From positions 2,976,001-3,040,000 of the forward strand of contig NZ_OW235315.1 of the NCBI RefSeq assembly GCF_934924865.1: 64,000 bases of DNA, given 5' to 3'. A model generated the notes under the pieces. The model had not been told where the DNA came from and ran no database searches. It saw only the letters and a list, made by a program, of their open reading frames with translations. Positions 3,700 through 5,961 of this stretch are shown one piece after another. Position numbers and translations under genes: made by a program. Source of the DNA: Tepidibacter aestuarii. GTDB lineage: Bacteria > Bacillota > Clostridia > Peptostreptococcales > Peptostreptococcaceae. The first letter of the stretch is position 1; each line of letters opens with the position of its first letter.

Positions 3700-5118
3700 T
3701 TATTCCTTAATATTCCATCTAGTACCTTGTCTAGTGTCTAGAATTTCTATATCCATTTCTAATAGGAGCTTTCTTATTTTATCTGATTTCTCCCAATCTT
3801 TGTTTTTTCTAGATTCTTCTCTTTCTTTCAAGAGTTTTTCTACCAAATTTACTTTACTTTCGCTTATATTTTTATTTTCTTTATTAATTTTTGTAAAATC
3901 CAATCCAAATACTTTATCAAAATCTTCTATTAAAACCTTCTTTTCTAAGCTATTTAAATCATCATCTTTTACAACATTGAATAATACAGTAAATCCATTA
4001 GCTAAATTTAAATCATCATTTATATATTTATTAAATTCATCTTTATATTTTTTGATCTTATATTCATCTTTTGATGTGTATTCATCTATGTTGTTGATTA
4101 TAGAATTTATTTTGTATTTTAAAGCTGTTAAAGATTTTTTTGATTCTTCTAATCTTTCATAACTAAAGGTTAAAGGTTTTCTATATTTAGATTGAAGTAC
4201 ATAATATCTATACACTAATGGATCAAATCCTCTTTTTATTAACTTATCTAAAGTTAAAAATTCGCCCTTTGATTTAGACATTTTTCCATTATCTAATATT
4301 AGAAACTCGCCATGCATCCAGTAATTTACCCATTTATGACCAAGAGCACCTTCTGATTGAGCTATTTCATTAGTATGATGTACTGGTATGTGATCTACAC
4401 CTCCACAATGAATATCCATATACTCTCCTAAATACTTTATAGCCATAGATGAGCATTCTATGTGCCATCCTGGAAATCCAACTCCCCAAGGAGAGTCCCA
4501 TTGTAATATATGGTTTTCATACTTAGAGTTTCCAAACCATAATACAAAATCTAGTGGATTTCTTTTAAATGGATCTACATCTACTCTACTACCTGCTTGA
4601 AGTTCTTTCGACGTTAAATTTGTTAGTTTATAGTAACCTTCAAACATATCTATTGAAAAATATACATTTTTATTAGCTATATAAGTATATCCCTTTTCTT
4701 CTAGAGTCTTTATTAAATTTATAATATCTTCAATATGTTCTGTAGCTCTAGGTACTACTGTTGCAGGCTTTATATTTAATTTTTTTAAGTCTTTAATAAA
4801 TGCATCTTCATAAAATCTAGCTACTTCTAATACACTTTTATGTTCTCTCTCAGCCCCCATTTTCATTTTATCCTCGCCAGTATCTGCATCTGATTGTAAG
4901 TGTCCTACATCAGTTATATTCATTACATGTTTGACTTCATATCCTCCATATTCAAGAACTCTTTTTAATATATCTTCAAATATATAAGTTCTTAAATTTC
5001 CAATATGAGCAAAATTATATACAGTTGGCCCGCAAGTATACATTTTCACTTTTCCATCTTCTATAGATATAAATTTTTCCTTTATTTTTGTTAAGGTATT
5101 ATAAATTCTTAAGTTCAT
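3700..5118 (-). CDS. cysS: Cysteinyl-tRNA synthetase
   Basis: Class I aminoacyl-tRNA synthetase charging tRNA-Cys in the cytoplasm. 472 residues, normal length. The HIGH-type motif (VYNFAHIGN) lies at about residues 33-41, the KMSKS loop (GKMSKSKG) at about 278-285, and zinc-site residues include C29 (YTCGPT) and the ECSS and DIHCGG...H region. The C-terminal tail (RKNKDWEKSDKIR) is typical of the family. The ATG at 5118 has AGGAGG 7 bases upstream. It is transcribed alone, behind a leader with a Cys-rich peptide gene (5257-5331) and an intrinsic terminator (5144-5213). No T-box sequence is visible in the leader, although clostridial aminoacyl-tRNA synthetase genes often have one. Confidence 0.98.
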   Translation of the reverse strand: MNLRIYNTLTKIKEKFISIEDGKVKMYTCGPTVYNFAHIGNLRTYIFEDILKRVLEYGGYEVKHVMNITDVGHLQSDADTGEDKMKMGAEREHKSVLEVARFYEDAFIKDLKKLNIKPATVVPRATEHIEDIINLIKTLEEKGYTYIANKNVYFSIDMFEGYYKLTNLTSKELQAGSRVDVDPFKRNPLDFVLWFGNSKYENHILQWDSPWGVGFPGWHIECSSMAIKYLGEYMDIHCGGVDHIPVHHTNEIAQSEGALGHKWVNYWMHGEFLILDNGKMSKSKGEFLTLDKLIKRGFDPLVYRYYVLQSKYRKPLTFSYERLEESKKSLTALKYKINSIINNIDEYTSKDEYKIKKYKDEFNKYINDDLNLANGFTVLFNVVKDDDLNSLEKKVLIEDFDKVFGLDFTKINKENKNISESKVNLVEKLLKEREESRKNKDWEKSDKIRKLLLEMDIEILDTRQGTRWNIKE

Positions 5119-5143: not shown

Positions 5144-5213
5144 TATAAAAAAACTACAGAAAAGTTATAGCTTCTCTTAAAATAAAGAAAAACTAAAAAC
5201 TAACCTGTAGTTT
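5144..5213 (-). terminator. Attenuator hairpin in the cysS leader
   Basis: On the minus strand, AAACTACAG (5213-5205) pairs with CTGTAGTTT (5159-5151) and is followed by T's (to about 5144). Inside, AGTTTTTCTT and AAGAGAAGCT form a further ten pairs counting G-U, so the whole 63-base interval folds as one long hairpin. It sits between the Cys-rich leader peptide and cysS, about 26 bases before the cysS start, so it must be read through for cysS to be expressed. Its 5' arm contains ACAGGTT (5208-5202), which can instead pair with GACCTGT (5274-5268) at the end of the leader peptide gene. Confidence 0.85.
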
Positions 5214-5256
5214 GTTTTTAATGAACTTGAATATAAGTATATTAAACTATAAAATA

Positions 5257-5331
5257 TTAAAATTGACACAGGTCTGCTGTTATCTTAAATTTTGTTATAT
5301 TTTTAAAACAACAACAGCAACAATACATCAT
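5257..5331 (-). CDS. Cys-rich leader peptide controlling cysS by attenuation
   Basis: A 24-codon open frame beginning MMYCCCCCF, with five consecutive Cys codons (5322-5308), a sixth Cys codon near the end and a TAA stop at 5259-5257. A strong Shine-Dalgarno (AAAGGAGG) lies 8 bases before the ATG. The frame is followed by an antiterminator/terminator choice: 1:2 pairing AAAATT (5293-5288) with AATTTT (5264-5259) and ACAG with CTGT, 2:3 pairing GACCTGT (5274-5268) with ACAGGTT (5208-5202), and 3:4 terminator 5213-5151. This is the layout of classical amino-acid attenuators: ribosomes stalling on Cys codons when charged tRNA-Cys is short would free segment 2 to disrupt the terminator. The peptide itself probably has no other function. 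The sequence shows the parts; the regulation is inferred. Confidence 0.85.
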   Translation of the reverse strand: MMYCCCCCFKNITKFKITADLCQF

Positions 5332-5442
5332 TTTAATATCCTCCTTTTATAGTTATTTTATTCTATATTATGGTATTATAATAAAAAATGCAATATTTAT
5401 TTTATAACTCTTAGTGTATAAAAGATATATTTTAAAAACACA

Positions 5443-5490: not shown

Positions 5491-5961
5491 ATGGAAATTA
5501 ATATACCAGGAAGAGGAATCATAAAGATTAAAAATCTTTTATTAGACTATAATGGAACTATAGCTTGTGATGGTAAAGTTATACCATCAGTAAAGAAGAG
5601 AATAGAGGCTATTAATAAAGCAGGAATAAGAGTACATTTAGTAACTGCTGATACCCATGGTACTGTAAGAACTCAATGTGCTGATATGCCTATTGAAATA
5701 CAAATATTTGATAACTCAAATGCTGCAAAAAACAAAAGAGAAATTGTAGAAAAACTTGGATCAGAAAATTCTATATGTATTGGAAATGGATTTAATGATG
5801 GACAAATGTTTGAAGCAAGTAGCATATCAATGATAGTAATGGGAGAAGAGGGTTGTTCAGCTAAATCCTTAATGAAAGCAGATATTTTATGTAAGAAAAT
5901 TGAAGATGCGCTTGATTTGATATTAAAACCAACTAGAATAATTGCAACTTTAAGAGGATAA
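5491..5961 (+). CDS. HAD-like hydrolase related to soluble P-type ATPase domains
   Basis: 156-residue HAD-superfamily protein without a cap or membrane segments. Motif I is DYNGT (residues 19-23); the second acidic position of the usual DxDGT is Asn, as in the 'soluble P-type ATPase' group. Motif II is VTADTHGT at about 52-59, and GNGFNDG at about 99-105 supplies the motif IV acid. The fold suggests phosphatase or phosphotransfer chemistry; the substrate is unknown. With the second Asp missing from motif I, catalysis may be weak or P-type-ATPase-like. ATG at 5491 follows AAGGAG by 8 bases. It is a single gene ended by a strong terminator. Confidence 0.85.
   Translation: MEINIPGRGIIKIKNLLLDYNGTIACDGKVIPSVKKRIEAINKAGIRVHLVTADTHGTVRTQCADMPIEIQIFDNSNAAKNKREIVEKLGSENSICIGNGFNDGQMFEASSISMIVMGEEGCSAKSLMKADILCKKIEDALDLILKPTRIIATLRG

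Follow-up and report, generated by a model that had tools for sequence, protein, structure and literature searches.

A predicted cysteine-codon transcription attenuator upstream of an accessory cysteinyl-tRNA synthetase gene in Tepidibacter aestuarii and its relatives

The 64 kb stretch of Tepidibacter aestuarii DNA analysed in this study (the window) carries cysS2, an accessory gene for cysteinyl-tRNA synthetase (CysRS), which is preceded by a short leader ORF with five tandem Cys codons, a set of competing RNA pairings and an intrinsic terminator. Very probably, this Cys leader is a ribosome-mediated transcription attenuator that senses charged tRNA-Cys. The initial annotation had seen in it the layout of an amino-acid attenuator, a prediction now supported by Cys-run leaders in related bacteria, by the preservation of the antiterminator pairing (strands 2 and 3) and by the lack of a T-box. 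A Cys-specific, ribosome-mediated attenuator is thus predicted on a clostridial synthetase gene, where T-boxes are expected.

The leader region of cysS2 and its alternative pairings

On the minus strand, the order of elements is a promoter-like stretch, a Shine-Dalgarno (SD) sequence, the leader ORF, strand 2, strand 3, the terminator and cysS2. The region is bounded by cysS2 and by a divergent ORF of 156 aa (5491-5961, plus strand), which by eye resembles a small HAD-type protein and has no Pfam match at E 1e-5. The features are:

5365..5393, minus strand: promoter-like TTGCAT-17 nt-TAATAT, a weak candidate found by eye
5340..5347, minus strand: Shine-Dalgarno sequence of the leader ORF, AAAGGAGG, read from the sequence
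5257..5331 including the stop codon, minus strand: leader ORF of 24 codons, MMYCCCCCFKNITKFKITADLCQF, preceded by the SD and kept in relatives
5308..5322, minus strand: tandem Cys codons TGT TGC TGT TGT TGT (codons 4-8), putative sensor and part of strand 1
5252..5342, minus strand: protector hairpin 1:2, -23.0 kcal/mol, matched by 0/300 shuffles
5267..5274, minus strand: strand 2, GACCTGTG, the 5' strand of the antiterminator, placed by its pairing with strand 3
5202..5210, minus strand: strand 3, CTACAGGTT, common to antiterminator and terminator, from the pairing analysis
5147..5213, minus strand: intrinsic terminator 3:4, from folding (stem 5213-5151, T-run 5153-5147)
3700..5118, minus strand: cysS2, predicted regulated gene, a full-length cysteinyl-tRNA synthetase and accessory paralogue, from profile and identity

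The coordinates originally given for a 24-codon ORF with a Cys run and a ribosome site were borne out on re-reading the sequence, with the ATG at 5331-5329 and the stop codon at 5259-5257. This is a short, SD-preceded ORF whose tandem codons are cognate to the gene downstream, and its codon run is singular: at least four tandem TGY codons occur at one site in the whole 64 kb, on either strand, and across 14 large ORFs of the window Cys accounts for 112 of 7683 residues. The promoter-like stretch is absent from the list produced by a promoter scan of the window, and a similar stretch is also kept in two related loci (L003 and L004).

In the protector hairpin, the end of the leader ORF is paired with the start codon and the final bases of the SD, and AACAGCAG, immediately 5' of strand 2, is the partner of the Cys codons (TTGCTGTT). 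The start region may be partly locked within this modelled helix, so that the initial round of translation of the leader may be gated. A shorter 1:2 hairpin had been proposed initially (AAAATT with AATTTT, and ACAG with CTGT); it persists as a minor alternative, the longer helix 5342-5252 being favoured. The remaining pairings stood as first described. GACCTGT (5274-5268) pairs with ACAGGTT (5208-5202) in an antiterminator duplex of -10.9 kcal/mol, more stable than all 300 shuffles, and the terminator stem, with its T-run ending 28 nt ahead of the cysS2 start (5118), folds with a z-score of -7.2. Neither the terminator nor the leader as a whole (z -4.9) was equalled in stability by any of 200 shuffles. 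A pattern-based terminator scan with a loop limit of 8 nt listed none at the leader, and it is by folding that the terminator is found. An intrinsic terminator is therefore present between leader ORF and gene, the 2:3 pairing of the window excludes it, an arrangement also kept in relatives, and in the model the protector hairpin and its spacing are those expected of an attenuator.

No T-box (RF00230), S-box, other riboswitch or any other Rfam family reaches its gathering score in the window, and 20 related cysS loci, of which ten have a Cys leader, likewise gave no match; a T-box, S-box or other known riboswitch was ruled out on this basis as the identity of the leader. Matches found in the window at a lax threshold (four microRNA families and a Nanos element) were taken as chance. 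The earlier remark that no T-box precedes cysS2 thus agrees with the Rfam scan, and the nearest one in the genome lies more than 340 kb away. T-boxes are nevertheless in wide use in this genome, which has 27 matches above cut-off. The one closest to the resident cysS sits ahead of a proS-like gene, and among 20 loci of other cysS types a T-box was present in the compared stretch of five. Elsewhere in the T. aestuarii genome (G000:C1:1508967-1510200), four T-boxes are packed into 1.3 kb, two on each strand.

Conservation of the leader and of its pairings in relatives

Upstream regions were scanned automatically for an SD-preceded ORF of 8-50 codons with at least three Cys in five residues, located within 450 nt of the gene, and genes with at least 57% identity were counted as cysS2 type. 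Cys leaders were found in 39 of 89 cysS2-type upstream records vs 0 of 111 for other cysS genes; in the same scan, the next most frequent amino acid was Leu (12/89). With identical regions counted once, 31 of 71 distinct cysS2 upstream regions have a Cys-run leader, a figure that includes L210, which fails the SD filter alone; the other 30 have an SD-type site that passes it. Three of the 40 regions without a Cys leader are uninformative (upstream sequence is missing for L054, and only N-terminal pieces of uncertain type are present in L213 and L214). The initial annotation had made its reading depend on relatives also having the Cys codons, and these 31 regions do. They come from Peptostreptococcaceae, Clostridium, Lutispora and one further family, and specify peptides such as MKYCYCCCFKTYKNLKLTTDLCPF, MCCCLNFRLKSDTTCIR, MMCCCCCLLTNSILLYDNSNKSAFFEITL and MLCCYTCKCSVCNRITGMVCVF, with lengths of 13-29 codons (L211 being counted from its SD-preceded ATG and not from a TTG further upstream). 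In 30 of the 31 the Cys-rich run starts at codon 2-4; beyond the run, distant groups have little peptide sequence in common.

A covariance model (R1) was also run against 391 genomes of the class. Since only seven candidates were scored per genome, the scan is no measure of rarity, and the distribution of leader and cysS2 was taken from protein searches. Matches at E<=0.01 occurred in five genomes: that of the window and four others with weak matches (E 0.004-0.007), of which L089 and L092 lack a run of three TGY codons, while L090 has a run of four and L091 a run of three. In the T. aestuarii genome the model finds no second copy, the known site scoring E 7e-19 and the next match E about 1.

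The peptides bear on two other readings. The leader could use the same RNA switch to sense general translation trouble, such as arrest on poly-Cys, redox or metal effects on the peptide, or drugs acting on the ribosome. Cys-rich nascent chains could conceivably bind metals or become oxidised, but the gene under control encodes the cognate synthetase, a run that begins so close to the start codon leaves little nascent chain, and the peptide outside the run differs among groups, all of which makes this reading quite improbable. The ORF could also specify a functional Cys-rich micropeptide, with the terminator just ending its own transcript. Conserved Cys runs and a well-formed SD, start and stop fit this reading, yet the length varies between the extremes given above, the sequence beyond the run differs among groups, strand 2 imposes a constraint on the 3' part of the ORF and the model detects no other copy in the same genome; we regard such a function as highly improbable. 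The association of leader and cysS2 is in itself no proof against a micropeptide, because the upstream regions examined were almost all those of cysS genes.

The case for an attenuator is strengthened by the pairings themselves. The RNAalifold consensus of 12 leaders is the strand 2:3 duplex, with seven pairs, six of them kept in 12/12 and one changed on both sides, at a small energy of -5.6 kcal/mol. Dinucleotide shuffles were beaten (p<=0.05) by the 2:3 pairing in 22 of 31 leaders and by the protector 1:2 in 21; the pairing was not above shuffles in the other nine for 2:3 (L012, L018, L019, L053, L131, L165, L204, L208 and L209) and the other ten for 1:2. In L019 and L131, the 2:3 site chosen by the program differs from that read by hand. 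As placed by the program, strand 2 begins 22-38 nt 3' of the Cys run in 29/31. The paired sequences vary widely, from ACCTGTG/CTACAGGT in the window to GCCTGCG/CGCAGGT in L013, ACTGAGCT/AGCTACAGT (with a bulge) in L128 and TGCGGCC/GGCTGCA in L211, and the flanking pairs include A-T, G-C and G-T at one position and C-G, T-A and T-G at the other. A swap test was made on 28 of the 31 leaders, with the register fixed by hand; L211 and the near copies L003 and L209 were excluded. In register, 168/196 cells were paired vs 155.4 +/- 3.2 when strand 3 was swapped between leaders, and 0/2000 swaps reached as high a value, a significance that ignores kinship between the leaders. Judged from these alignments, strands 2 and 3 change together across species with their pairing maintained, and the covarying 2:3 stem that had been suggested as a check is there in the relatives.

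The protector is not built alike everywhere. In L011, L013 and L024 the 1:2 helix covers the SD (AGGTCGTAT with ATACGACCT or ATGCGGCCT), just 5' of Cys codons that occupy positions 2-4 or 3-6, and a ribosome stalled on these codons would be expected to cover the helix; among the three, 1:2 reaches p<=0.05 in L024 only.

Tandem terminators are seen in nine cysS2 leaders (L009, L018, L100, L131, L161, L163, L165, L176 and L210), and in many leaders of this kind the arms are also able to cross-pair, the first T-run with the second A-run. The long hairpin of Tepidibacter (5213-5147 in the window) looks like two tandem terminators fused into one. Clostridium carboxidivorans (L011) has about 200 nt more between terminator and cysS2 than the related L024, and the extra stretch holds an inverted repeat.

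The alternative structures could instead control translation, hiding or freeing the cysS2 ribosome site rather than setting the end of transcription. Translation attenuation is described for mycobacterial cysteine genes in the part of PMC13236596 drawn upon here, but such control is highly unlikely for cysS2, where the hairpin runs straight into a T-run, the SD of the gene lies beyond it and outside the stem, and several relatives have two terminators in tandem.

The accessory synthetase gene and its history

The gene behind the leader had been called cysS, and it does encode a cysteinyl-tRNA synthetase, but it is the second, accessory copy, 43% identical to the resident cysS of the same genome. 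The closest solved structure by sequence is 3sp1, which we take to be from Borrelia. The protein matches the cysS profile over residues 3-469 of 472, and this near-full-length match rules out an identity as CysRS*, the form without an anticodon domain (as described in the consulted part of PMC9437257). The resident gene is clustered with genes that by eye resemble gltX, proS, thyX and rlmB, and is taken to be the housekeeping copy, since a cysS match is present in 70 of 71 genomes of the family and the type seen in the window in few. Genes of cysS2 type were found in eight of these 71 genomes, all eight having the other cysS copy too. A further cysS2 copy (L105, G416:C2:41724-43054) is broken and lacks a Cys leader; its genome likewise contains the other cysS. 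In the family of genome G213, 56 of 206 genomes have a cysS2-type gene (E<=1e-160), one of them with an internal stop. Among the loci compared, the nearest named relative is the cysS of Tepidibacter mesophilus, at 90% identity.

A quick tree of 149 cysS proteins was built after leaving out 18 duplicate records and proteins below 400 residues; it is unrooted, and long branches were flagged. All 47 cysS2 rows form one group (support 98), separate from the resident cysS. Within the group, 25 of the 47 rows carry the leader label, which implies seven changes. Three of the group's four basal branches include leaders, and the remaining one consists of a single leaderless row (L010). The leaderless genes L174, L178, L017 and L200 retain a matching terminator and L184 retains a truncated MLNCC ORF, both read by eye, and these five are apparently relics of a lost attenuator. 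By themselves the counts cannot separate gain of the leader from its loss, but a single origin is the likeliest history, with the leader probably ancestral to the cysS2 clade and repeatedly lost. Another cysS match was found in 27/30 leader-bearing vs 10/15 leaderless genomes searched, a trend only towards a link between the leader and a second cysS. The neighbourhood was sampled by scanning 20 flank proteins from 15 cysS2 loci with Pfam, a partial set. It varies by locus (formate transporter, permeases, hydrolase, regulators), and only the formate transporter recurs among these 20 proteins, in the window and in its relative L003.

Proposed mechanism and comparison with known systems

With plentiful Cys-tRNA, a ribosome would pass the five Cys codons and reach the stop codon, where it would cover strand 2, allow 3:4 to form and so end transcription at the T-run. 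Termination would also be the outcome if the leader were not translated, as the long 1:2 hairpin would hide strand 2. When Cys-tRNA is short, the ribosome would stall in the Cys run and open the 1:2 stem; the freed strand 2 would then pair with strand 3 ahead of the synthesis of strand 4, and RNA polymerase would enter the accessory cysS. We infer that the response to tRNA-Cys, the stalling, the co-transcriptional timing, the read-through and the physiological role are probably as outlined here.

This scheme was modelled in 15 of the 31 leaders, chosen by the analyst, with a simple ribosome footprint that spans from 17 nt before to 15 nt after the start of the A-site codon. Before strand 4 is made, predicted 2:3 pairing is higher in 14/15 with a ribosome stalled at the first Cys codon than with none or with one at the stop codon, rising from 0.00 in both of the latter states to 0.37 in the window and to 0.97 in L102. 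The predicted advantage is narrow in L018 and L128 and fails to appear in L211, and with the ribosome in mid-run 2:3 is weak in L194, L208 and L211. In the finished transcript of the window, the terminator has a modelled equilibrium probability of 0.77 in every ribosome state, so that antitermination must be kinetic, as it is in textbook attenuators. L011, L013 and L128 alone favour read-through at equilibrium, and then in some of their stalled states. The ribosome-free state favours the terminator in 14/15, the exception being L013 (0.26). Contrary to the scheme, modelled terminator values with the ribosome at the stop codon are 0.00 in L011, 0.02 in L013 and 0.48 in L161.

It could be speculated, tentatively, that gene and leader form a self-sensing rescue cassette of sporadic occurrence, with a foreign-type CysRS kept silent until the resident enzyme fails, be it through an inhibitor, oxidation, metal or cysteine famine. 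A comparable case would be the indolmycin-resistant TrpRS1, and resistance is among the roles of duplicate synthetases given in the consulted part of PMC9437257. If this were true, a natural CysRS inhibitor would be the selective force. More generally, the 31 distinct leaders could define an RNA family absent from Rfam, a patchily distributed second CysRS is marked as probably charging-controlled, and the question of why many bacteria keep duplicate synthetases becomes testable via cysS2.

The trp and his attenuators of enterobacteria combine a leader peptide with 1:2, 2:3 and 3:4 pairings. The Cys leader is like them in both, and differs in that theirs belong to biosynthetic operons of Gram-negative bacteria.

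Among Firmicutes, a statement of 2005 held that no synthetase gene was under classical attenuation (PMC1262725; this and the other papers cited below are drawn upon in part). Leader attenuators with His codons have been predicted on hisS*/hisZ paralogues in bacilli (PMC2965389) as well as in Peptostreptococcaceae, Lutispora, Erysipelotrichales and the B. cereus group (PMC9413887). From earlier work, PMC4833913 cites hisZ leaders of bacilli and C. difficile, and a Leu leader is described in S. aureus (PMC5794164). Upstream of cysS itself, the uORFC-8-2 motif of Rhodobacterales has 145 examples, found before cysS only, that combine a terminator with tandem Cys codons (PMC8632094). The initial annotation had expected an unusual system, but the precedents with Rhodobacterales cysS and with His leaders mean that a Cys attenuator on cysS is not unheard of. 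The main texts of two RNA-discovery papers (PMC11109978 and PMC6429828) do not mention cysS or cysteine, and none of the papers listed in a search of mostly open literature and main texts deals with such an attenuator on a clostridial cysS, a prediction of it in the attenuator survey of Lopatovskaya 2010 being possible. The Cys leader on an accessory clostridial CysRS gene is thus new, as an example of a kind of switch that is already known.

According to T-box surveys, cysS often takes second place in a T-box operon (PMC2494555), and cysteine T-boxes are described in Clostridium perfringens (PMC2940859). These share with the Cys leader a premature termination tied to cysteine supply, but sense tRNA directly, without a leader ORF, whereas the cysS2 leader has no T-box match. 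Mycobacterial cys operons have leader ORFs with runs of Cys codons (PMC1262725), which is common to both systems; theirs, however, are biosynthetic operons, for which the part of that paper drawn upon reports no terminator hairpin. The His leaders resemble the Cys leader as predicted ribosome-mediated attenuators from the same bacterial family (PMC9413887) and, in the case of hisS*/hisZ, on duplicated synthetase-type genes where a T-box would be expected (PMC2965389), although with histidine codons and his genes in place of Cys codons and cysS2. The uORFC-8-2 motif offers the same proposed logic: a short uORF with tandem Cys codons in the first stem, a U-run terminator and cysS. Compared by description, it belongs to Alphaproteobacteria and usually has two tandem Cys codons at positions 14-15, a trait not shared by the window leader with its five at codons 4-8, and the clostridial Cys leader is set apart further by the start region held in the protector helix, by the tandem terminators of several relatives and by the accessory nature of its cysS.
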